From Bryobacterales bacterium (GTDB lineage: Bacteria > Acidobacteriota > Terriglobia > Bryobacterales > Bryobacteraceae), in assembly GCA_027452065.1 (NCBI GenBank), contig DAIDHC010000024.1, forward strand, positions 1 through 64,000: 64,000 nt of DNA. The letters run 5' to 3'. This document shows, one piece after another, positions 31,186 through 60,739 of this stretch. The notes under the pieces were generated by a model. That model searched no databases. It was not told where the DNA came from and saw nothing but the letters and a program-made list of their open reading frames with translations. The position numbers were made by a program, and so were the translations under genes. The first letter of the stretch is position 1. Every line of letters starts with the position of its first letter.

Positions 31186-32508
31186 ATGGCCTCGAAACGG
31201 ATCACACAGGAAGCCGCCGAACGCGCAAAGCCCGGCATTGGTAAAGATGGGAAGCCCAAGGACTCGATCCTATGGGACTCGGGCCTCAAGGGATTCGGCC
31301 TGATATGCCGGAAGAACGGCGTAACGAAAACCTGGATTATGCAGCGGTGGGTGGCCCGGAAGACGGCCCGCGAAACCATTGGCCATTACCCTGCGATGAG
31401 CGCCAGCGAAGCCCGGACCAAGGCCGAAGGTTCGAGCGCCAAGATGAAGAAGGGCTTCAACCCCCACGACGCCCGCGCCGCTGACCCCACGCTGGGTGTT
31501 GGCTTCGAGAAGTACTTGGCCGTCCGCGTCGATATCGGCGAATCGACCAAGCGCCTCTACCGGGACAACTTCGACCGATACCTAGGCGGGTTCAATGCAG
31601 GCGGCACGACGCGGACCTTCACAGAGACGCCGCTATTCGAGCTAGCGAAGAACGCCGGGCGCGCGGAGGAGATGTTCGCCTCCGTGACGCGGGAGTTCGG
31701 GAAGGGCGCGGCGAACGGAGCGGCACAGATCGTCCGCGCCGTCTACCGTCACCACGCCAAGTACCACGACGAATGGCCCCGCCATCCAGTCCGGTTCAAA
31801 CTTCATAAGCTGAAGCCCCGTAAGAAGGTTATTCCTTACGACCAATACGAGCAGTGGGCGCGGGCCGTGATGACGATTGAGAACCCGGTACGGCGCTGCG
31901 GCCAACTCTTCATCTTGCTGTCGGGGATGCGCGTGGACGCTACCCGCAAGATGCGATGGGAGCACATCGACTGGAAGCGCCGAACGCTGCTGGTGCCTGA
32001 GCCGAAGGGCGGCGAACTCTTCGAGTTCACGTTACCGCTCAGTACACAAATGGTCGCAATCCTCGAACGCCTCAAGGTCTACCGCGATGCGGAGCGGGCC
32101 TTCGGCGATAACCCGCAGTGCAAACAGTGGTGCTTCCCTTCGGTCGATAGTGAGAGTGGCCATGTGATCGAGTTCAAAGAGCAGCGCCGCGAAGCCCTGG
32201 TGAACCCGCACGCCCTGCGCCGGACCTTCATGACTCGCGCGGCGGACATGGTCCCGAAGAAACACATCAGCTTCCTCGTCAACCATGCCATCGAGGAGGA
32301 GAACGTAACGGACGATTACATCGTTGCCGAGGACGCCCCGCTGCGCGAGAGCCAGCAGAAGATATCCGACTACATCATAAAGATGCTGGCGGTTCCGCTC
32401 GAAGATACAAGACCCGGCCCGTCGCCATTCGCGAGAGCAAAGGCGTTGCTGAAATCGAATGGAGCGGACGGAGGCCGAAGGCGTTCCGGGATCGGATGGT
32501 GCTGGTGA
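31186..32508 (+). CDS. Tyrosine recombinase (P4-like integrase)
   Basis: This 440-residue protein has an N-terminal arm-binding region like DUF4102 (residues about 1-90; SILWDSGLKGFGLICRKNG, ARETIGHYPAMSASEART) and a core-binding middle. The C-terminal catalytic domain has R249 (LSGMRVDATR), H342 and R345 (PHALRRTF), H367 and the nucleophile candidate Y378 (DDYIV). It integrates the element into the tRNA-Arg 3' end. It faces away from the left attachment repeat and converges with the cargo operon. Confidence 0.93.
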   Translation: MASKRITQEAAERAKPGIGKDGKPKDSILWDSGLKGFGLICRKNGVTKTWIMQRWVARKTARETIGHYPAMSASEARTKAEGSSAKMKKGFNPHDARAADPTLGVGFEKYLAVRVDIGESTKRLYRDNFDRYLGGFNAGGTTRTFTETPLFELAKNAGRAEEMFASVTREFGKGAANGAAQIVRAVYRHHAKYHDEWPRHPVRFKLHKLKPRKKVIPYDQYEQWARAVMTIENPVRRCGQLFILLSGMRVDATRKMRWEHIDWKRRTLLVPEPKGGELFEFTLPLSTQMVAILERLKVYRDAERAFGDNPQCKQWCFPSVDSESGHVIEFKEQRREALVNPHALRRTFMTRAADMVPKKHISFLVNHAIEEENVTDDYIVAEDAPLRESQQKISDYIIKMLAVPLEDTRPGPSPFARAKALLKSNGADGGRRRSGIGWCW

Positions 32509-35359: not shown

Positions 35360-35406
35360 ATGGTGCGCCCGGACAGATTCGAACTGCCGACCTTCTGGTT
35401 CGTAGC
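35360..35406. repeat. Right attachment repeat (element-borne tRNA 3' half)
   Basis: The 47-bp copy that joins the chromosomal 5' half of tRNA-Arg at 35407-35437 to rebuild an intact gene. Identical to 30899-30945. Confidence 0.9.
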
Positions 35407-35437
35407 CAGACGCTCTATCCAACTGAGCTACGGGCGC
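35361..35437 (-). tRNA. tRNA-Arg (anticodon ACG)
   Basis: Read on the minus strand, a 7-bp acceptor stem GCGCCCG/CGGGCGC with discriminator A and encoded CCA encloses a D arm (GCTC/GAGC), an anticodon stem TCTGG/CCAGA with loop CTACGAA (anticodon ACG), a 5-base variable loop and a T arm with TTCGAAT. The gene is intact and serves as insertion site of the adjacent element, which supplies its 3' half. Confidence 0.95.
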
Positions 35438-35471: not shown

Positions 35472-36587
35472 TCACCCTGCGATCCTTCCCCCCCGGTTCA
35501 GCCTCAACCGCCGCCCGCCCCACTCCACCTCGTTCCCCACCAGCCCCGCCGCCCACACCGCCAGGCCGTGCAAATCCCGCGCCGGAATCAACCACCACAA
35601 CCGCCCCACATCCTCGCTCTCCAGCAGCCTCCCCGCCGCCATCGCCGCCCCATACCGCAGCGCCATCAACCCCGCCGCCATCCACCACGCCCCCGCCGCC
35701 GCCGCCCCGATCGCCCACACCGTCGCGCACGTCACCGGCAGCCCCGCATACCCGCCCCCGCGCGACACGCGGATCGTCCGCGCCCATCTCACCTGGTGCC
35801 TCCACACCGCCCCCCAACTCTCCGCCTCCAGCCTCGTCGCCACCACCGTCCGCGCAATCTCGTTCCGCCGTCCGAGCCCGTGGATCCGCGCCCCAATCTG
35901 ATAATCGTCGGCCAGATACTCGCTCACCGCCTCGAACCCCCCGATCGCCTCCAGGTCCGCCGTCCGGAACCCCAGCGTCGATCCCAGCCCGAATTCGTTC
36001 ACTCCCATCATCGGCGCCACCAGCGTGCTCGCCGCGAAATCCGTCGCCACTCCGAGCCCCTCGAACCGCGCCGCGAAACTCCCTCCCTCGGCCCGGTACA
36101 AACACGTCACAACACCCGTCCCCGCTTCCCCCAACGCCCCAACCACGTCCTCCAGATACCCTTCCGGAGCCACAATATCGGCGTCGTTCACCACCAGCAC
36201 GCTCCCCCGCGCCGCGCGCGCCAGATCGATCAGCGTCCCCACTTTCGCGTTCGCCGCCACGCTGCTGCACTCCACCACCCGCACCCGCCCCTCCGGATAC
36301 CGCCCCCTCCCGGCCGCCTCCTCCGCCGAAGCCGCGTCCTCCTTCCCCCTCACCCCCACCAATACTTCGAACTTCCCTCCATACCTCTGCCCCGCCTGCG
36401 ACCGGATCGCCTCTCCGATCCTCTCCGTCATCGCCCGCACCGGTTTCAGGATCGACACCACGGGCAATTCACCCTCCGCCCGCCGTTTCCGTTTTCCCAT
36501 CTGCCGCGCCACCGCCGCCAGCGCCATCGCCTGGTACGCCGCCGCCGCCGCGCACATCCCCGCCAGCCCCACGCCCCAATAAGTCAC
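35472..36587 (-). CDS. hpnI: Hopanoid-associated glycosyltransferase HpnI
   Basis: With a GTG start at 36587 that overlaps the stop of the SMR-type gene, the protein has 371 residues. An N-terminal membrane helix (WGVGLAGMCAAAAAYQAMAL) is followed by a GT2 domain like ceramide glucosyltransferase: LPVVSILKPV, VVNDADIVAPEGYLEDVV, GSTLGFRTADLEAIGGF, LADDYQIGARI and RHQVRWARTIR. C-terminal membrane helices follow. HpnI transfers an N-acetylglucosamine unit to bacteriohopanetetrol. The upstream 80-residue frame extension is a shadow of the neighbour. Confidence 0.87.
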   Translation of the reverse strand: MTYWGVGLAGMCAAAAAYQAMALAAVARQMGKRKRRAEGELPVVSILKPVRAMTERIGEAIRSQAGQRYGGKFEVLVGVRGKEDAASAEEAAGRGRYPEGRVRVVECSSVAANAKVGTLIDLARAARGSVLVVNDADIVAPEGYLEDVVGALGEAGTGVVTCLYRAEGGSFAARFEGLGVATDFAASTLVAPMMGVNEFGLGSTLGFRTADLEAIGGFEAVSEYLADDYQIGARIHGLGRRNEIARTVVATRLEAESWGAVWRHQVRWARTIRVSRGGGYAGLPVTCATVWAIGAAAAGAWWMAAGLMALRYGAAMAAGRLLESEDVGRLWWLIPARDLHGLAVWAAGLVGNEVEWGGRRLRLNRGGRIAG

Positions 36588-36943
36588 AACGCCAGCAGCG
36601 CAACCCCGCAGGCCACCAGGCACGCCCCGGCCCACCGCCGCGCCTCCACCCGCTCCTTCAACACCACCTTCGCCAGCATCGTCTCCACCACCACGCTTCC
36701 CGCCGTCGCCGGCACCGCGAAGCTCAGCTCCGCTATCGACAGCAGCTTCAGAAACGCGAAGAACGATACCGCCATGAACCCAACCGCCGCCACTATATAG
36801 GGCCGCCTCAACACCGCCGCCGCTTCCCGCACCCATCCCCCGCCCAGACGCACTTCGCCGTGCCTCCGCATTTCCATTGTCTGCAGCAGGTCCGCCGCAA
36901 TCGTCGCCCCCGCCACCACCCCCACCAGAACCCAGCGCGTCAA
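36584..36943 (-). CDS. SMR/EamA-type four-helix membrane protein (subunit 1)
   Basis: With a TTG start at 36943 overlapping the previous stop (TTGA) the protein has 119 residues and four hydrophobic segments, as in small multidrug resistance proteins: WVLVGVVAGATIAADLL, PYIVAAVGFMAVSFFAFLKLL, LSFAVPATAGSVVVETMLAKVVL and WAGACLVACGVALL. The pair with the next gene recalls ArnE/ArnF, the heterodimeric lipid-linked aminoarabinose flippase. Between hpnJ and hpnI it may flip a glycosylated hopanoid intermediate. That role is inference. Confidence 0.78.
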   Translation of the reverse strand: MTRWVLVGVVAGATIAADLLQTMEMRRHGEVRLGGGWVREAAAVLRRPYIVAAVGFMAVSFFAFLKLLSIAELSFAVPATAGSVVVETMLAKVVLKERVEARRWAGACLVACGVALLAL

Positions 36944-37326
36944 TCCGTCTCCCCCACCGCGCTCCCCGTCCGCTCCCGCGTCGTGCTCACCAGCGCCACG
37001 CCCGCCGCAATCAGCGCCGTCCCCGCCCATCTCACCCCTGCCACCCTCTCTCCGAACACATACCGCCCCACCAGCGCCGTCGCAACGTACCCGGCCGAGG
37101 TCACCGGCAGCACAAAGCTCAGGTCCGCCCAGCTCAATAGCGTCATCCGCGTTAGCATCCACAGCGCCAGCAGTCCGATCCCCAGCCCCACCCATGGATT
37201 GAATACCGCCCGCGCCAGCGCCCACGGCGCCAGCCGGATTCCCCCCGGCAGTCCCTTCACTCCCCAGTCCAGCGCCGCGTTCCCCAACGCGTTGCTCGCC
37301 ACCACCACCACCGTCAGCGCCCGCAT
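36940..37326 (-). CDS. SMR/EamA-type four-helix membrane protein (subunit 2)
   Basis: With the ATG at 37326 (Shine-Dalgarno GGAGGCGGGG upstream) the protein has 128 residues and about four membrane helices: VVVVASNALGNAALDWG, VGLGIGLLALWMLTRMTLL, ADLSFVLPVTSAGYVATALVGRYVF and RWAGTALIAAGVALVS. It is a diverged partner of the following gene. It starts 26 nt after hpnJ, in the same operon. The fold is clear; the substrate is not. Confidence 0.78.
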   Translation of the reverse strand: MRALTVVVVASNALGNAALDWGVKGLPGGIRLAPWALARAVFNPWVGLGIGLLALWMLTRMTLLSWADLSFVLPVTSAGYVATALVGRYVFGERVAGVRWAGTALIAAGVALVSTTRERTGSAVGETD

Positions 37327-37352
37327 CCGCAGCCGCCGCGCCCCGCCTCCGC

Positions 37353-38825
37353 TCAAGAAACCCGCTCTCCCGCTTCGCTCAACACCCCCGCCGCCTGCTT
37401 GTCGTGTTGCTCTTTCACAAACCGCTTCCGCTTGCTCCGCAGCGCCAGATACTCTCGCGCTTCCTTGTACAGCCGCGGAATGTCGTTGTTCACCACCGCG
37501 TGCTTCACAACACGCCACGCAGCCTTCGGCCGGAAATAATACTCTCCGTAAAACCGCTCCACCCACTCCACCAGCTCGCCCCGGTTCAGCCCGGGATAAA
37601 TGATGTTCGGTAACTGGTGTCCGCTCTCGTCCGTCATCGAGTCGATCGTGATCAGATTGTTCTTCTTGACGTAGTCGTAAAACTCCGTCCCCGGATACGG
37701 ATGCGCGATCGATACCTGGATCGTCTCCACGTCCAGCCGCTTGGCAAAGTCGATCGTGTTCCGCAGCGTCTGCCGCGACTCCCCCGGCAGCCCCACAATG
37801 AAGTCCCCGTGAATCGTCAGCCCCAGCTTGTGCGCGTTCTCGGTGAACCGCCGCGCCATATCCACCGTCGCGCCCTTTTTGATGTTCTTCAGAACCTGGG
37901 TGTCCCCGGATTCATAGCCCACGATCAACAGCCGCCCCCCGGCTTCCTTCATCGCCTTCAGCGTCTCGTAGTCCGTCGTCACCCTCGACGTGCAAGACCA
38001 TGTGAAGTTCAGCTTCTTCAGCTCCTTGCACAGCTCGATCGTCCGCTCTTTTTTGTAATTGAACGTATCGTCGTCGAAGAAGATCTCCTTCAACCCCGGA
38101 AACGTCTCCAGCGCATACCGGCACTCGTTCACAATGTCCGGAATCGATCGCAGCCGCCACCGGTGCCCCGAGTGCGTCTGCGGCCACAAACAGAACGTAC
38201 ACATCGCCGGACATCCCCGCGAGGTGTAAAACGCCACAAACGGGTTCAGCAGAAACGGCACGTTGTATCGCCGGAAATCCAGGTCCCTCTGGTAGACCTT
38301 CGTCACCCACGGCAGCTCGTCCAGGTTCTCAATCACCCCGCCGTCCGGGTTGTGCGTCACGCTCCCGCCGTTGCGCCAGCTCACCCCAGGCAGTTCGCTC
38401 AGCGGCTTGCCCTGCGCGTAACCCGCAATCTGGTAGTCGAACTCCTTCCGCACAATGAAGTCGATCGCCTTGGAATCCTTGAACGCCTTCTCCGGCTCCA
38501 CCGTCACCGGCGGCCCCACAAACGCCACCTTCAGCTTCGGATTGACGTCCTTCATCATCTCCGCAATCCGCACGTCCACGTGAAATCCCGGCGTCGAGGT
38601 GAAAAGCACCAGCAGCTCGAAATCCCCCGCCATCGCCACCGTCTGCTCGATCGATACCTTGTGCGGCGGCGCGTCCACCACCTTGCTGTCCGCCAGCATC
38701 CCCGCCGGATAACACAGCCACACGGGATACCAATACGACTCGATCTCCCTTGACGCCGGCCATCGCGACCCCGCGCCTCCATCGAAGCCTTCAAACGATG
38801 GCGGATTCAGGAACAGTGTTCTCAT
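37353..38825 (-). CDS. hpnJ: Hopanoid-associated radical SAM protein HpnJ
   Basis: This 490-residue protein begins MRTLFLNPPSFEGFDGGAG, an N-terminus characteristic of HpnJ. A B12-binding-like domain follows (residues about 60-150), then a radical SAM core with CxxxCxxC in TSRGCPAMCTFCLWP and DDDTFNYKKERTIELCKEL. HpnJ acts late in hopanoid side-chain synthesis, converting the sugar attached by HpnI into the cyclitol ether. First gene of the hpnJ-SMR-SMR-hpnI operon. HpnK, HpnH and squalene-hopene cyclase are not in this window. Confidence 0.93.
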   Translation of the reverse strand: MRTLFLNPPSFEGFDGGAGSRWPASREIESYWYPVWLCYPAGMLADSKVVDAPPHKVSIEQTVAMAGDFELLVLFTSTPGFHVDVRIAEMMKDVNPKLKVAFVGPPVTVEPEKAFKDSKAIDFIVRKEFDYQIAGYAQGKPLSELPGVSWRNGGSVTHNPDGGVIENLDELPWVTKVYQRDLDFRRYNVPFLLNPFVAFYTSRGCPAMCTFCLWPQTHSGHRWRLRSIPDIVNECRYALETFPGLKEIFFDDDTFNYKKERTIELCKELKKLNFTWSCTSRVTTDYETLKAMKEAGGRLLIVGYESGDTQVLKNIKKGATVDMARRFTENAHKLGLTIHGDFIVGLPGESRQTLRNTIDFAKRLDVETIQVSIAHPYPGTEFYDYVKKNNLITIDSMTDESGHQLPNIIYPGLNRGELVEWVERFYGEYYFRPKAAWRVVKHAVVNNDIPRLYKEAREYLALRSKRKRFVKEQHDKQAAGVLSEAGERVS

Positions 38826-38858: not shown

Positions 38859-39632
38859 CTACTCGTCGCCGGCGGCCGGCTCAGCCTCGGCCGAATCCGC
38901 GGTCTTTGCCGGATTCGCAAACCGGATGCTCAACTGCACCGGACCCACCAGGCGCGTGTCCACCAGCGACTCGATATGCCTCGGTACCGCCACCCCGTCG
39001 TTCATCCCGTACTCGCGCACGAATTCCATCTTCTTGAAGAATATCGACGGCGATTTCACAAATCGCCCCGACTCGCGCACCGGCATGCACGTCTCCGGGT
39101 CCAGCCACAGCTCACCCTTGAACAAACCAACCTTCTTGTGACGCGGCGCAAGATGAAATACGTACACTTGCTTTCCGTTTCTTTCTTCCAGCCCCCGGTA
39201 CCGGAACTTGTAGTTCGCCGCCGTGATCGCCATGTCCTGCTGCGAACCCTGCGCCTGAACCTCTGCGGTCAAATACCGTGCGATGACGTCTTTCTTCACC
39301 GTGCTGTCTCCGCTGAAGCCCAGCATGTGATACGTCACTTTCCCTACCTTGGAAATGTTTCTCAGTGCGTGTAACTTCCCGTGTTTCTTCAGCTTCGGCA
39401 GCTCGGCGTCGATGTCCACTTCCATCGTCACCCCGCGCAGAGCCTGCTTCTGCTGCTCGGTCGCCGCAAAGTACCGGTTCAGAATCTGCGTGTCCTGCGC
39501 GTCCGGCTTTCCGAAAAAGCCCAAACCCGCCGTTGCGTCCAATCCCCCCGCCTGCAGATTCGACGCGCTTCCTCCGGCCACCGCCAGCGCCACCCACACT
39601 GCCCTAGTTATGATTCCTGAAAGTCTCTTCAC
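38859..39632 (-). CDS. Exported LolA-fold-like (outer-membrane lipoprotein-sorting) protein
   Basis: A GTG at 39632 (VKRLSGIITRAVWVALAVAGG) gives 257 residues with a signal peptide. An AGGAGG lies about 22 nt further up, so the true start is uncertain. The body has the curved-sheet pattern of LolA-like proteins: GVTMEVDIDAELPKLKKHG, KVTYHMLGFSGDSTVKKDVIARYL, YKFRYRGLEERNGKQVYVFHLAPRHKKVGLFKGELWLDPETCMPVRESG. It is probably periplasmic and lipid-handling. It lies 33 nt upstream of hpnJ on the same strand, which is suggestive for hopanoid trafficking but not proof. Confidence 0.7.
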   Translation of the reverse strand: MKRLSGIITRAVWVALAVAGGSASNLQAGGLDATAGLGFFGKPDAQDTQILNRYFAATEQQKQALRGVTMEVDIDAELPKLKKHGKLHALRNISKVGKVTYHMLGFSGDSTVKKDVIARYLTAEVQAQGSQQDMAITAANYKFRYRGLEERNGKQVYVFHLAPRHKKVGLFKGELWLDPETCMPVRESGRFVKSPSIFFKKMEFVREYGMNDGVAVPRHIESLVDTRLVGPVQLSIRFANPAKTADSAEAEPAAGDE

Positions 39633-54192: not shown

Positions 54193-54915
54193 TCACTCTC
54201 CTCCCAACACCTCCAGCCCCTTCCCGCCCTCCATCGCCCGCCACACCTCGTTGTACTCCTCCTCGCTCATCTCCCGCTTCAGTTGAAACCGGTATTCCCT
54301 TGGCCCCGCATGCAGCCGCGCCGATTTCTCCCCGCTCGTGATCGCCAGCCCCCGTGGCCCCTCCCGGCTGATGTTCTCAATGTCCCTCCTCCGCCACGTC
54401 CTCGATCCATCCTTCGCCCCGCTCCGGAACACGATCCTCTCCGCCCCGATCTCCAGCTCTCCTTGCACGCCCGCCCACCCGCGCAGCATCTTCGCCCCCG
54501 TCCTCCACACCGGCTTCCCATCCCCCTCCGCCACCCACGCCACCAGCCTTCCATCCATCCGCGCCCCCAACACCGCGTACAGTTTCCGCGCCGCCCCGTC
54601 TTCCTTCAACCGGTACACATACTCCCGGTCCCGCCCCAGCTCCCACTTTCTGTCCTCATATGTCACCACCGTCACCGCCTCCGGCGTCAGCGTCAACTGC
54701 TCAATGTCCCCATAGCGCCACGTCCGCCCGTGCTCCGCCTTCCCTCCCTCCTCGCGATACACAATCCCATCCGCGCCCGCCTCCAGCGTCCCGTTCGCTC
54801 CGCCGTGCCCGTGCACATGCCGCACCGCCACCCGCGCCGTCTCCGCGCAGAAGGCCGGCGCCGCCACCAGCGCCATCACGGCCGCGCCAATTCCCGCTTC
54901 AATTCGAAATGCCAT
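54193..54915 (-). CDS. Exported hypothetical protein downstream of cusA
   Basis: With ATG 54915 the protein has 240 residues and a signal peptide (FRIEAGIGAAVMALVAAPAFCA). The body repeats a PH-like beta pattern twice: LEAGADGIVYREEGG..TWRYGDIEQLTLTPEAVTVVTYED and LEIGAERIVFRSGAKDGSRTWRRRDIENISREG. It overlaps the 3' end of cusA by about 40 nt, so it belongs to the efflux operon. Function unknown. Confidence 0.72.
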   Translation of the reverse strand: MAFRIEAGIGAAVMALVAAPAFCAETARVAVRHVHGHGGANGTLEAGADGIVYREEGGKAEHGRTWRYGDIEQLTLTPEAVTVVTYEDRKWELGRDREYVYRLKEDGAARKLYAVLGARMDGRLVAWVAEGDGKPVWRTGAKMLRGWAGVQGELEIGAERIVFRSGAKDGSRTWRRRDIENISREGPRGLAITSGEKSARLHAGPREYRFQLKREMSEEEYNEVWRAMEGGKGLEVLGGE

Positions 54916-57900
54916 TTCCACACCTCATAAATTGCCGGATATACCACCAGCTCGAGCACGAACGACGTGAAGATCCCTCCGATCATCGGCGCCGCAATCC
55001 GTCTCATCACGTCCGCACCTGCCCCGTTCGACCACAAAATCGGCGCCAGCCCGAAAAACATGCACGCCACCGTCATGAACTTCGGCCGGATCCGCTTCAC
55101 CGCCCCGTGCAGAATCGCTTCCCGCAGATCCCGCGCGTTCCTCAGTCTCCCCTCCGCCCTCGCCTCCCCGTACGACAGGTCCAGATAGAGCAGCATGAAT
55201 ACCGCCGTCTCCGCGTCCACCCCCATCAACGCGATCAATCCCACCCACACTCCCACGCTCATGTTGTAGCCCAGCGCGTACAGCAGCCACACCGCGCCAA
55301 CGGCCGAAAACGGCGCCGCCAGCAGGATGATCATCGTCTTCGCCGCCGACTTCGTGTTCCAATACAGCAGAACCACTATCGCGATCAGCGTCACCGGCAG
55401 CACCAGCTCCAGCCTCTGCTTCACTCTCTCCATCCCCTCGAACTGCCCGCTCCAGGCCAGCGTGTATCCCGGCGGCAGCTTTACCATCCGCGCCACCGCC
55501 TTCTTTGCCTCCTCCACATACCCTCCGATGTCCCGCCCCGCCACGTCCACATACACATACCCGTTCAACATCCCGTTCTCGTCCCGCAGCATCGACGGCC
55601 CCGCCGCCACCCGCACCCGCCCCAGCTCCGACACCGGCACCTGCGCCCGCCCTCCCATCGCCGGCAGCAGAACTTTCTCCATCGTTTCCACCCGGCTCCG
55701 GAAGTCCCGCGCATACCGCACGTCCACCGGATACCTCTCCCGCCCCTCCACCGTCGTCGTCACGTTCTCTCCGCCCACCGCGCTCATCAGCGCCGCCTGT
55801 GCCTCCTCCATCGACAGCCCGTATCTCGCCAGCTCGTCCCTGTTCCACTCGAAGTCCACAAAATATCCCCCGCCCGTCCTCTCGGCAAACGCGTTCCTCG
55901 TCCCCCGCACCCCCGGCAGCACTCCCTCCAGCTCTCTCCCGAGCCTGTCGATCTCCGCGATGTCCGGCCCGTAAATCTTGATCCCCACCGGCGTCCTCAC
56001 CCCCGTCGTCAACATATCGATCCGCGCCTTGATCGGCATCGTCCACGCGTTGGCAACACCCGGCAGCCGCAGCGCCGCGTCCATCTTCCCGATCAGCTCG
56101 TCCACGCTCGCGTGCTCCGGCCACACCCGCCCCAGCGCTCCCGCCAGCCATCGCGGCGCCCACTCCGAATACCACCGCCCCACCTTCGGCCACTCCGCCT
56201 CCGGCTTCAACGCCACCACGGTCTCGGTCATCGACAGCGGCGCCGGGTCCGTCGGCGTCTCCGCCCTCCCCGCCTTCCCCAGCACCGTCGCCACTTCCGG
56301 AAATCCCCGCAGAATCCGGTCCTGCGTCTGCAGCAGCCTCTGCGCCTCCCCGATCGGCACCCCAGGCAGCGTCGACGGCATGTACATCAGCGTCCCTTCG
56401 TCCAGCGGCGGCATGAACTCCGTCCCCAGCCTCTCGTACACCGGCACCGTCGCCGCCACCACCACCGCCGCCCCGCCAATCACCACCCACTTCCACCTCA
56501 GCGCCCACTCGCACACCGGCTCGTACACCCGGATCAGCACTCTGCTGATCGGATGCTCCTCCTCCGCCCGGATCTTCCCCACCACCACCGCGTTCGCCAC
56601 CCTCCTCAGCCACCGCGGCCGGAACTCGAACTCCCGCGCCCGCGTCACCATCAGCCGCAGCGCCGGGTCCAGCGTCACCGCCAGCACCGCCGCGATGATC
56701 ATCGCCAGCGTTTTGGTATAAGCCAGCGGCCGGAACAGCCGCCCCTCCTGCTCCTCCAGCGTCAGCACCGGAAGAAACGACACCGCGATCACCAGCAGCG
56801 CGAAGAAACTCGGCCCCGCCACTTCCTTCACCGCCTCGATCACCACTCTCCGGTAATCCCCCTGCCTCCCTCCCTTCTCCCACTGCTCCAGCCTCTTGTG
56901 CGCCTGCTCCACCACCACGATCGAAGCATCCACCATCGCCCCGATCGCAATCGCAATCCCCCCCAGCGACATGATGTTCGACGTCATCCCCATCGCCTTC
57001 ATCGGCACAAACGCAATCAGGATCGCCATCGGTATCGTCAGCACCGGTATCAACGCGCTCGGAATGTGCCACAGGAAAACCAGAATCACTCCCGACACAA
57101 TCGCCATCTCCTCCATCAGCGTGTGCCGCAAATTCTCAATCGACCGCAGAATCAGGTCCGACCGGTCGTACCCACTCACCACCTTCACCCCCGCCGGCAG
57201 CCCCGGCCCGATCTCGCCCAGCTTCGCCTTCACCCTCTCAATCACTCTCAGCGCGTTCTCCCCCTGCCTCATCACGACAATCCCCGCCACCGCGTCCCCG
57301 TCTCCGTTCCAGTCCGCTATCCCCCTCCTCATGTCCGGCCCCAGCCCGACACTCCCCACATCCCTCACCCGCACCGGCACTCCCCCCACGCCGTCCCCCA
57401 CTCCGATCCGTCCAATGTCCTCCACGCTTCGCGCGTATCCCCGCCCCCGCACCATGTACTCGGTCCCGTTCATCTCCACCACCCTCGCCCCCGCGTCCTC
57501 GTTGCCCGCTCTCACCGCCTCCGCCACCTTCCCGATCCCCACGTTGTACGCCTGCAGCTTCACCGGATCCACGTTCACCTGGTACTGCCGCACGAACCCT
57601 CCCACACCCGCCACCTCCGCCACCCCCGGCACCGACAAAAGCTGGTATCGCAGAAACCAGTCCTGGATCGATCGCAACTGCGCCAGGCTCTGCCTCCCGC
57701 TCTCATCCACCAGCGCGTACTCATACACCCAGCCAACACCCGTCGCGTCCGGCCCCATCTCCGTCCTCACCCCCGCCGGCAGCTTCGGCAGCACCGCCGA
57801 CAAATACTCGAGCGTCCTCGACCTCGCCCAGTAAATATCCGTCCCTTCCTCGAAAATGATGTACACATACGAGTAGCCGAAGTCCGAATATCCCCGCACG

Positions 57901-58139
57901 TCCTTCACCCGCGGCGCCCCCAGCATCGCCGTCACAATTGGATACGTCACCTGATCTTCCACAATGTCCGGGCTCCGGTCCCACCGCGAATACACGATCA
58001 CCTGCGTATCGCTTAAGTCCGGAATCGCATCCAGCGGGATGTGCGCCAGCGACCACGCCCCCGCCGCCGCCGCGCCCAATGCCGCCAGCACCACCGCAAC
58101 CCCGTGCCGCGCGCAGTACTCGATCACCCGGTTAATCAT
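54876..58139 (-). CDS. cusA: CusA-type heavy-metal RND efflux pump
   Basis: A 1,087-residue inner-membrane RND transporter with twelve helices and two large periplasmic loops. CusA-type segments are MGPDATGVGWVYEYALVDESG, SIQDWFLRYQLLSVPGVAEVAGVGGFVRQYQV, MPPLDEGTLMYMPSTLPGVP and MPIKARIDMLTTGVRTPVGIKIYGPD. These mark the copper/silver subgroup of HME-RND pumps. Proton-driven export across both membranes with CusB and a TolC-like partner. It overlaps cusB by eight bases and the PH-like gene at its end. Confidence 0.93.
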   Translation of the reverse strand: MINRVIEYCARHGVAVVLAALGAAAAGAWSLAHIPLDAIPDLSDTQVIVYSRWDRSPDIVEDQVTYPIVTAMLGAPRVKDVRGYSDFGYSYVYIIFEEGTDIYWARSRTLEYLSAVLPKLPAGVRTEMGPDATGVGWVYEYALVDESGRQSLAQLRSIQDWFLRYQLLSVPGVAEVAGVGGFVRQYQVNVDPVKLQAYNVGIGKVAEAVRAGNEDAGARVVEMNGTEYMVRGRGYARSVEDIGRIGVGDGVGGVPVRVRDVGSVGLGPDMRRGIADWNGDGDAVAGIVVMRQGENALRVIERVKAKLGEIGPGLPAGVKVVSGYDRSDLILRSIENLRHTLMEEMAIVSGVILVFLWHIPSALIPVLTIPMAILIAFVPMKAMGMTSNIMSLGGIAIAIGAMVDASIVVVEQAHKRLEQWEKGGRQGDYRRVVIEAVKEVAGPSFFALLVIAVSFLPVLTLEEQEGRLFRPLAYTKTLAMIIAAVLAVTLDPALRLMVTRAREFEFRPRWLRRVANAVVVGKIRAEEEHPISRVLIRVYEPVCEWALRWKWVVIGGAAVVVAATVPVYERLGTEFMPPLDEGTLMYMPSTLPGVPIGEAQRLLQTQDRILRGFPEVATVLGKAGRAETPTDPAPLSMTETVVALKPEAEWPKVGRWYSEWAPRWLAGALGRVWPEHASVDELIGKMDAALRLPGVANAWTMPIKARIDMLTTGVRTPVGIKIYGPDIAEIDRLGRELEGVLPGVRGTRNAFAERTGGGYFVDFEWNRDELARYGLSMEEAQAALMSAVGGENVTTTVEGRERYPVDVRYARDFRSRVETMEKVLLPAMGGRAQVPVSELGRVRVAAGPSMLRDENGMLNGYVYVDVAGRDIGGYVEEAKKAVARMVKLPPGYTLAWSGQFEGMERVKQRLELVLPVTLIAIVVLLYWNTKSAAKTMIILLAAPFSAVGAVWLLYALGYNMSVGVWVGLIALMGVDAETAVFMLLYLDLSYGEARAEGRLRNARDLREAILHGAVKRIRPKFMTVACMFFGLAPILWSNGAGADVMRRIAAPMIGGIFTSFVLELVVYPAIYEVWKWHFELKRELARP

Positions 58140-59475
58140 GTTCCGGCCCCATCCCCGGCATCGCCGGCATCTTCTTCCCCTTCTCCGGTGGCGCCGCTTT
58201 CCCCGCCGCCCCCATCCCCGGCATCCCCGCCATCGCGCCCGCCGCCGCTTTCAACTGGCTCTCCGAGTCCACCAGAAACGTCCCCGACGTCACGATCCTC
58301 TCGCCCCTCTTCAGCCCCTTCACAATCTCCACCCTCTCCCCCAGCGCCTGTCCCGTCTCCACCTGCCGCGGCTCCAGGTACCCGTTGCCCCGGTCCACGA
58401 ACACCGTCTTGCGCTCGCCCGAGTCCAGCACCGCCTCCGCCGGCACCGTCAGCCTCTCGCCCGTCCCCGTGGCGAAGTCCACGTCCACATACATCTCCGG
58501 CTTCAGCCTCATCCCCGGGTTCGCCAGCTCCAGCCGCACCTGCAGCGTCCGCGTCGCCGCGTTCACCTCCGGCTGGATGTAGCTCACCCGCGCCGCTTGC
58601 GTCCGCCCGCCCTCGTAGGGCAGCCGCACCACCGCGCTCTGCCCCATCCGGATCTCGGCCGCGTCGGCTTCAAACACGTCCGCCATCACCCACACCCGGC
58701 TCAGATCCGCCACCGTGTACAGCTCCGTCTCCGGCGTCACCTTCTGCCCCGGAAACGCGTTCCGCGCCAGCACGTATCCGCTCACCGGCGCTCCCATCTC
58801 CACCGCCCGCACCGTCCGCCCCGTCCTCTCGATCTCCTCAATCTGCGCCCCGCTCAGCTCCCACAGCTCCAGCCTCTTCCGCGCCGCCGCCACCAGCGTC
58901 TCGCTGTCCGCCGCCGTCCCCGCCATCGTGCTGCCCTTCAGAATTCCCCTCGCCTTCACCGCCAGCAGCAGCTCTTCCTCGCTCGCCAGCATCTCCGGGC
59001 TGTAGATCGTCAGCAGCGCCTGCCCCTTCTCCACCCGCGCCCCGGTGAAGTCCGCCCGCACCTTCTCAATCCATCCCTCAACACGCGGATGGATCTTCGT
59101 CACCCTCGTCTCATCCACCGCCACCTTCCCTACCGCCCGCACCGTTCCGCCGCCGCTGGTCATTTCCACTTCCCCGTACCTCACCCCGATCAACTGCTGC
59201 CTCCCCTGGTCGATCCGCACCGTCCCCTCCGCCATCCCCGCCGGCGCCCCGGCCTCTTTCTCTCCCTCGTACACCGGCACCAGCTTCATCCCGCAGTCCG
59301 GCGCCACGCCCGGTTTGTCGGCTTTGTACGCCGGGTGCATCGGATCCTGCCAGTACAAAATCCTCCTCGCCTCCCGCCCCGCCGGCCCCGCCCGCCGCGC
59401 CGAATATTGGAGCCCCGCCCCGAATCCCGCCGCCACCAGCGCCGCCATCCCCACCGCCATCAAGATCTTTTTCAT
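58132..59475 (-). CDS. cusB: CusB-type periplasmic adaptor with N-terminal heavy-metal-binding domain
   Basis: This 447-residue protein has a signal/anchor (KKILMAVGMAALVAAGFGAGL). A heavy-metal-binding domain is at residues about 38-70 (YWQDPMHPAYKADKPGVAPDCGMKLVPVYE). Lipoyl/hairpin and barrel domains follow (GKVAVDETRVTKIHPRVEGWIEKV, GAPVSGYVLARNAFPGQKVTPETELYTVADLSRVWVMADVFE). The tail is Met/Gly/Pro-rich (MAGMPGMGAAG, MPAMPGMGPEHD), a further likely metal-binding stretch. It links CusA to the outer-membrane channel. Confidence 0.93.
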   Translation of the reverse strand: MKKILMAVGMAALVAAGFGAGLQYSARRAGPAGREARRILYWQDPMHPAYKADKPGVAPDCGMKLVPVYEGEKEAGAPAGMAEGTVRIDQGRQQLIGVRYGEVEMTSGGGTVRAVGKVAVDETRVTKIHPRVEGWIEKVRADFTGARVEKGQALLTIYSPEMLASEEELLLAVKARGILKGSTMAGTAADSETLVAAARKRLELWELSGAQIEEIERTGRTVRAVEMGAPVSGYVLARNAFPGQKVTPETELYTVADLSRVWVMADVFEADAAEIRMGQSAVVRLPYEGGRTQAARVSYIQPEVNAATRTLQVRLELANPGMRLKPEMYVDVDFATGTGERLTVPAEAVLDSGERKTVFVDRGNGYLEPRQVETGQALGERVEIVKGLKRGERIVTSGTFLVDSESQLKAAAGAMAGMPGMGAAGKAAPPEKGKKMPAMPGMGPEHD

Positions 59476-59485
59476 ACGCTCGTCC

Positions 59486-60739
59486 TCACTCGCTCAACTT
59501 CATCCCCGTCAGCTCCTCCAGCCGGCTCAGCGCCGTGTGGAAGCCCTGCATCTGCTCGTGGTAGCCCATCTCCAGTTCCACCACCCCGTCCGCGTTCGTC
59601 AGCACCGACATCATGTCCACCGCCCCGGTCTGATACGCGATCAGCGACGAGTTCAGCGCCAGCTTCGCCTGCGGAATCACCGTCCCCTCGTAGGCCGTCA
59701 GAATCTCGTACGCCGTCGTCGCCGCCAGATACTGCTCCCGGATCCGGAACCCGATCTCCCGCGCGTCCGCCTCCAGCGTGTGCCGCGCCTCGGCCACTCC
59801 GTCGCCGCGCTCGGCCAGCGCCGCCCTCTGCTTCCGGAAAAAGTACAACGGCACGTTGACGTCCGCCCGGAACACATACATCGGCGCCATCGGATGCTGG
59901 TTGAAATACCCCGCCGTGATTGTCGTGTCCGGGTAGTAATCCCTTCCCGCCAGGTTCCACTTGAGCTCCGAGCTCTGCAGCAGTTTTTCGTCCCTCTTCA
60001 GCTCTGGCGCGTCCTTCCGCCCGCGCGTCTCCAGCTCATCCAGCCTCAGCGCCGGCGCGTGCGCGTGCGGTTCGGCCGGCCTCCCCAGCTCCGCTTCCGC
60101 CGGCCGGTCCAGCAGAGCGTTGATCTCCGCCGCCTCCGTCGCCTGCTCCTGCCGCAGTTGCATCAGCTTCGTCTCAATCAGCGACACCCTCGTCTGCGAC
60201 TTGAAAACGTCTTGCTGCGCCGCCTTCCCCGCCGCATACCGCGCCTCGGCCACCTCGAGCAGCCTCCGGTAAATGTCCCGCCCTTCCTCCAGCACCGCCT
60301 CCGCTGCATACGAATGCTGATACCGGTAAAACGCCTGCTTCACCCGCGACACCACGTTCAGCTCCACCGCTTGGTAGTTTTCGAATTCCGCCTCCGCGTC
60401 TTTCCCCGCCGCCTCCTCCCTCAACCTCCTCTTGCCCGGATAAAAAAACTGCTGCGACACCTGCACCCCGATGTTGCTCGTCGGATACACCCCCAGCCCC
60501 GCCCCCGGCAGCGGATTCCCGTTGCTCGTGTACCCCATCGACACCACCGGATCCGGCAAACTCCCCGCCTGCGCCGGCCTCTGCCGCATCCCCTCATACC
60601 TCTTCTGCGCCGCCAGAATCTCCGGATTCCTCTTCAACGCCTCCGCCACCACCTCATCCAGATCCAGCTCCCCCGCGGCCCGCACAATCCCCGGACCCAT
60701 CACCACCGCCAACCCCACCGCCGCCAAAATACTCCGCAT
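59486..60739 (-). CDS. TolC-family outer-membrane efflux channel (CusC-like)
   Basis: With ATG 60739 (GGTGGAGAG upstream) the protein has 417 residues and a signal peptide (RSILAAVGLAVVMGPGIVRAA). Two OEP repeats of long helices are visible: LDEVVAEALKRNPEILAAQKRYEGMRQRP..GSLPDPVVSMGY, and FRADVNVPLYFFRKQRAALAE with YLAATTAYEILTAYEGTVIPQAKLALNSSLIAYQTGAVDMM. First gene of the cus operon. The upstream frame extension has the composition of the repeat region and is rejected. Confidence 0.92.
   Translation of the reverse strand: MRSILAAVGLAVVMGPGIVRAAGELDLDEVVAEALKRNPEILAAQKRYEGMRQRPAQAGSLPDPVVSMGYTSNGNPLPGAGLGVYPTSNIGVQVSQQFFYPGKRRLREEAAGKDAEAEFENYQAVELNVVSRVKQAFYRYQHSYAAEAVLEEGRDIYRRLLEVAEARYAAGKAAQQDVFKSQTRVSLIETKLMQLRQEQATEAAEINALLDRPAEAELGRPAEPHAHAPALRLDELETRGRKDAPELKRDEKLLQSSELKWNLAGRDYYPDTTITAGYFNQHPMAPMYVFRADVNVPLYFFRKQRAALAERGDGVAEARHTLEADAREIGFRIREQYLAATTAYEILTAYEGTVIPQAKLALNSSLIAYQTGAVDMMSVLTNADGVVELEMGYHEQMQGFHTALSRLEELTGMKLSE

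Follow-up and report, generated by a model that had tools for sequence, protein, structure and literature searches.

The locus described here lies in a stretch of 64 kb from a Bryobacterales bacterium (GCA_027452065.1, contig DAIDHC010000024.1, positions 1-64,000 of the forward strand), which we refer to as the window. Five genes follow one another on its minus strand, in the order LolA-like, hpnJ, SMR-A, SMR-B and hpnI-like:

38859..39632, minus strand: exported LolA-like protein, 33 nt upstream of hpnJ
37353..38825, minus strand: hpnJ, a B12-binding radical SAM protein of the BHT cyclitol ether synthase family (TIGR03471 749.9 bits, cut-off 577.6)
36940..37326, minus strand: SMR-A, a 4-TM half-transporter subunit of 128 aa, with an alternative TTG start at 37356
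36584..36943, minus strand: SMR-B, a 4-TM half-transporter subunit of 119 aa, whose TTG start overlaps the SMR-A stop
35472..36587, minus strand: hpnI-like GT21/GT2 glycosyltransferase, whose GTG start overlaps the SMR-B stop

The preliminary description of this DNA had placed hpnJ, two 4-helix membrane proteins and hpnI in a single operon at 35472-38825, with overlapping stop and start codons. The coordinates are correct and all four genes lie on the minus strand. The overlaps hold for SMR-A/SMR-B (4 nt, TTGA) and SMR-B/hpnI (4 nt, GTGA), but for hpnJ and SMR-A only if the TTG start at 37356 is used; with the ATG at 37326 these two genes are separated by a gap of 26 nt. Besides scoring over the curated TIGR03471 cut-off, the window HpnJ has both the radical SAM (PF04055) and the B12 (PF02310) domains, a CxxxCxxC motif at residue 205, and 78% and 46% identity to a relative (L104) and to Paraburkholderia HpnJ, respectively. 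The hpnI label needs some qualification: the protein scores 265.9 bits against TIGR03472, under the cut-off of 310, but HpnI is nonetheless its best family by far, and it has a Glyco_transf_21 match of 131 bits, a DAD motif and 49% identity to its relative in L063.

An involvement of the LolA-like protein in trafficking, as had been suggested, is a weak link. Its match to PF17131 (Pfam LolA_like) is below the cut-off (22.9 versus 30 bits) and, while the gene is placed and oriented alike in L063 and L104, which belong to the same family as the window, it is co-directional with the operon only in that family (three genomes). The protein is a candidate periplasmic partner. The divergently transcribed exported proteins found beside hpnJ in families f32 and f77 were also considered as homologues of the window protein, and hhalign gave no support for this.

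Both SMR proteins match the EamA family in Pfam, SMR-B above the cut-off (29.9 versus 28.2 bits) and SMR-A below threshold (22.9 bits). AF2 models show four TM helices in each, with pLDDT values of 88 (SMR-A) and 80 (SMR-B); helix number and length agree with SMR subunits, which have about 100-130 aa. The top Foldseek matches of SMR-A are EmrE and Gdx-Clo, and SMR-B matches EmrE with TM values of 0.67/0.74. The best matches are SMR proteins throughout, with probabilities of 0.91-1.00 and TM values of 0.48-0.74 for the top five per model; as their E-values are all at least 0.17, it is the rank and the probability, and not the E-value, that support the assignment. The predicted structures thus support an SMR (EmrE/Gdx-like) fold for the two proteins. 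Direct profile comparison with solved SMR structures gave no match, and picked up only NIPA2, weakly. Among the profiles compared with hhalign, the nearest to the pair is ArnE (probability 92-94), rather than EmrE or ArnF. The resemblance to ArnE/ArnF proposed earlier therefore stands in so far as ArnE is the nearest characterised relative, but the two proteins fall far under the cut-off of the curated ArnE model (21.7 and 19.0 bits versus 92) and have no detectable match to ArnF. By the curated cut-off, the pair is not a member of ArnE/ArnF.

The likeness to ArnE/ArnF also extends to organisation: in both cases, the genes for two small 4-TM subunits overlap and share their operon with a lipid glycosyltransferase gene, a deacylase is found in the operon (for our pair, at other loci), and there is no EmrE-type glutamate. 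The pair differs in its association with hopanoid rather than arn genes, and in the fusion of one subunit to a glycosyltransferase in one family (see below). EmrE and Gdx-Clo share the fold, but they are proton-coupled cation exporters that work through a central glutamate. At the column of EmrE E14, no glutamate was seen in any of 24 A or 25 B sequences; four residues further on, an N/D is conserved in A and a D/E in B, with the reservation that the TM1 alignment is weak. Lipid-type SMRs often lack this central glutamate (PMC9574504). The charge bias, averaged over 58 pairs, is -8.2 for B and -0.2 for A, compared to +4/-4 in typical pairs.

A search for HpnJ in 396 Acidobacteriota genomes found it in 65, in 62 of them over the cut-off, and 66 hpnJ loci were counted once three sub-cut-off paralogues had been set aside. 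At 57 of these 66 loci, hpnJ has downstream of it, on its own strand, an A gene and then a B gene, within 300 nt in 38 cases and within 1.2 kb in 51, with the gene orders hpnJ-A-B, hpnJ-hpnK-A-B-hpnI and hpnJ-A-B-hpnI. Four more genomes have the pair elsewhere: in G123 it is 8.5 kb away, and in G187, G259 and G283 it lies on a different contig. In whole-genome searches, the B profile scored at least 117 bits in 60 of the 396 genomes, all 60 of which encode HpnJ, and in none of the 331 Acidobacteriota genomes that lack HpnJ. If the pairs were placed at random in a 4.5-Mb genome, each would fall on the same strand and no more than 7 kb downstream with a probability of about 0.0008; as the genomes are related, we give no p-value. 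The linkage is nevertheless displayed by several families in the sample. These data support the view that the SMR pair is a conserved and nearly obligatory companion of hpnJ, hpnK and hpnI in Acidobacteriota, and on the strength of the survey we reject a chance neighbour or a drug exporter. The order hpnJ-hpnK-A-B-hpnI was also seen in genomes that we presume to be those of Chloracidobacterium from their size (3.7 Mb) and their two chromosomes of ~2.7 and 1.0 Mb (PMC8245765); C. thermophilum has been reported to produce BHT cyclitol ether (PMC5462960). The pair does not correspond to gene ug2 of the latter study, which is an alcohol dehydrogenase.

The window genome itself has three SMR pairs beside hpn genes, two at hpnJ and one at an hpnI homologue, and in all three the A subunits resemble A and the B subunits resemble B. 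The second hpnJ, on contig C8, scores 767 bits, is only 44% identical to the window HpnJ and has an A-B pair of its own after it; the third pair, on C130, is convergent to the hpnI homologue. Elsewhere in this genome are an HpnI paralogue of 351 bits (TIGR03472, on C105), two squalene-hopene cyclases over the cut-off, and a cluster ispH-shc-hpnA-hpnG-dehydrogenases-hpnC-hpnD, in which all names except shc come from reading the translations.

Six genomes without hpnJ were examined (G064, G188, G195, G227, G250 and G290). Five of them have a single A-like SMR gene beside hpnI and/or hpnK, and in G195 the SMR gene adjoins an aminotransferase gene that is also present at the other five loci. G064 has shc-hpnH-hpnA-hpnG-hpnI-hpnK-SMR in a row, with Shc, HpnH, HpnI and HpnK over their cut-offs. 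The SMR gene thus tracks the hopanoid sugar step, and not HpnJ alone. A radical SAM gene in L015 was considered as hpnH and ruled out (47 bits). A few related pairs lie away from hpn genes (L205-L209); the related SMR genes of L206-L209 match the B profile at about 100 bits and belong to genomes that lack hpnJ (G207, G161, G071 and G193).

A physical connection between the pair and HpnI is provided by G283, where SMR-B and HpnI form a single protein of 540 aa (B at residues 5-122, HpnI at 166-533), encoded downstream of hpnK and A in the order hpnK-A-B::I. The same fusion, with 63-73% identity, is found in G449 and in G452, where it runs off the contig, and its occurrence in three genomes makes an assembly artefact unlikely. 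It is confined to one family, different from that of the window; in G448, G451 and G453, the SMR-B and HpnI genes are separate and adjacent. The topology of the fusion is consistent: by its charge bias, SMR-B has its C-terminus outside, and a cytoplasmic catalytic domain in HpnI would place the N-terminus of the first HpnI helix on that side too.

The synteny survey of hpnI/hpnJ loci, which brought out the pair so clearly in Acidobacteriota, gave a different result outside this phylum: no A/B pair was found near hpnJ in 80 named loci from Proteobacteria, Gemmatimonadota and Rokubacteria. The linkage is therefore limited to one phylum and is not a common feature of hpn loci. In 50 of these outside genomes, no match to the B profile exceeded 68 bits. 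Such relatives score 58-68 bits, and the three best that were read lie in arnT-SMR-arnB-arnC-like operons (names from translations). An HpnL-type protein is encoded within the stretch read at roughly 40% of the 80 loci, and many Acetobacteraceae hpnJ loci have neither an SMR pair nor an HpnL-type protein in the stretch read. Within the Acidobacteriota, the pair is missing from the HpnJ-positive genomes G028, G270 and G184, as well as from G200, which is truncated, and G029, whose protein is not HpnJ. G028, G270 and G184 all have HpnL relatives (72-152 bits), two of them in the operon, the G184 match being a contig-end fragment; in G257, the pair and an HpnL relative occur together. The HpnJ tree separates an SMR clade from an HpnL-type clade that includes G028, G270 and G184. 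Because this is one change on the tree, the reciprocal presence of SMR and HpnL is close to a single ancient event rather than many, and the case for a strong statistical mutual exclusion is weakened accordingly. The HpnJ encoded on C8, the second in the window genome, is closer to the HpnL clade (56-61% identity) and yet adjoins an SMR pair; this hints at independent coupling, with the caution that long branches call for.

HpnL is a protein of about 330 aa, unrelated in family to the SMR pair, but like it is a membrane protein encoded beside hpnI, hpnJ and hpnK, and fills the same place in the operons of Proteobacteria and of the Acidobacteriota without the pair. Its family is LPG_synthase_TM (TIGR03476), the superfamily to which, as far as we know, the flippase domain of MprF belongs. 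HpnL may fill the same gap elsewhere, which would make the pair its non-orthologous counterpart; no function has been established for HpnL (PMC12583986).

What this gap might be is suggested by the biochemistry of composite hopanoids. The HpnI, HpnK and HpnJ reactions use cytoplasmic cofactors, HpnN works from the periplasmic side, and ArnE/ArnF flip undecaprenyl-phosphate-L-Ara4N. The composite hopanoids have to be flipped across the inner membrane, and we know of no protein named for this step. HpnN, an RND protein that takes hopanoids to the outer membrane, resembles the pair in acting on hopanoid localisation, but belongs to a different superfamily and acts later; none of 45 HpnJ-positive Acidobacteriota genomes has an HpnN over the cut-off. 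HpnI, HpnK and HpnJ convert BHT successively to BHT-GlcNAc, BHT-GlcN and BHT cyclitol ether (PMC12583986). We propose that, at the cytoplasmic face, bacteriohopanetetrol would receive its amino sugar from HpnI, that a deacetylase and HpnJ would remodel the sugar head, and that SMR-A and SMR-B would form an antiparallel SMR-type heterodimer which docks on HpnI and flips the composite hopanoid across the inner membrane, from its cytoplasmic leaflet to its periplasmic one. The preliminary description had seen in the gene arrangement a pointer to a dedicated flippase. With the nearly obligatory linkage, the fusion, the SMR fold and the kinship to ArnE now taken together, a dedicated composite-hopanoid flippase coupled to HpnI is the best explanation, and probably the right one, although we infer dimerisation, substrate, direction and transport itself. 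Several observations count against it: the strong charge bias of B has no counterpart in A, some related pairs lie away from hpn genes, the pair and HpnL occur together in G257, their reciprocal presence goes back to about one change on the HpnJ tree, and the ArnT-like transferases at some hpnI-SMR loci (L202, L211 and L213) would also suit an undecaprenyl-linked sugar.

In the closest alternative, the substrate flipped by the pair would be an amino sugar linked to undecaprenyl phosphate, the HpnI-like enzyme charging the carrier and a periplasmic ArnT-like enzyme passing the sugar to a hopanoid or to lipid A. ArnE being the nearest characterised relative speaks for such a route, as do the outside-phylum relatives in apparent arn operons. 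ArnT-like transferases are encoded near hpnI homologues and SMR genes at L202-L204, L211 and L213 (L202 also has a UDP-sulfoquinovose synthase-like gene); those of L202, L211 and L213, at 108-131 bits, are far under the ArnT cut-off. However, there is no ArnT-like gene in the window operon, nor beside most of the hpnJ-A-B loci read, and HpnI of other bacteria uses BHT directly (PMC12583986), HpnJ then modifying the BHT-bound sugar. We consider this route unlikely.

The fusion proteins, the adjacency to HpnI and the missing central glutamate would also be accommodated if the pair were a scaffold or activator without transport activity, anchoring HpnI or presenting BHT to HpnI and HpnJ. This is quite improbable, in view of the retention of two distinct subunits with the SMR fold, and of the class-mates of family f2 that have the pair with hpnJ and no hpnI within the stretch read; moreover, the HpnL genes found in the pair's place presumably belong to a flippase superfamily. 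Finally, export of guanidinium or drugs is the commonest role of SMR proteins (PMC9574504). That the pair is a generic exporter of small molecules or drugs, tied to the operon by nothing more than co-transcription, is barely credible given the presence of HpnJ in every genome with a strong B match, the lack of E14 and the fusion to HpnI.

We thus return to the composite-hopanoid flippase, and give an even chance to its broader form, a hopanoid synthase-flippase complex in which the pair, docked on HpnI, would export composite hopanoids in step with their synthesis, with HpnL as its unrelated counterpart elsewhere. On this reading, hopanoids would have their first named inner-membrane flippases, and the orphan HpnL would gain a function. 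In our search of the open-access literature, no paper connected hopanoids with SMR or EamA proteins, and the pair at hpn loci is real, strongly conserved and, it would seem, undescribed so far. A conserved pair and a natural fusion to the glycosyltransferase make the question of inner-membrane crossing testable, and the answer bears on the source of the composite hopanoids that serve as biomarkers.

The survey also provided information on the deacetylation step. According to PMC5462960, hpnK is missing from Acidobacteria of SD1 and SD3. Where a genome with HpnJ has no canonical HpnK, it encodes a divergent protein resembling HpnK (L248-L267), and five such proteins that were tested have HpnK as their best match (177-208 bits, under the 232.6 cut-off), and not chitin disaccharide deacetylase. 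We regard the divergent protein as a candidate for the missing deacetylase. In the window genome (G000, contig C145; L235, 4988-8462), a divergent protein of this kind is encoded at an mlaE-mlaF-mlaD-like operon, its gene overlapping the end of the MCE/MlaD-like one. An HpnK-Mla operon as a general hopanoid export system was rejected, as no mla gene was seen within 1.5 kb of the divergent HpnK gene in 20 other genomes.

Two further features of the window lie outside the operon. Directly downstream of hpnI is a tRNA-Arg(acg) gene (35361-35437, minus strand), which is adjoined by genes for a tyrosine recombinase (31186-32508), a DUF4411/PIN protein and an XRE/IrrE protein, so that the segment 31186-35437 looks like an island integrated in the tRNA-Arg gene. 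At 54876-60739, a Cus-like RND efflux operon encodes an AcrB-family pump, a probable outer-membrane factor and an HlyD/CusB-type fusion protein that has a domain for binding heavy metals.
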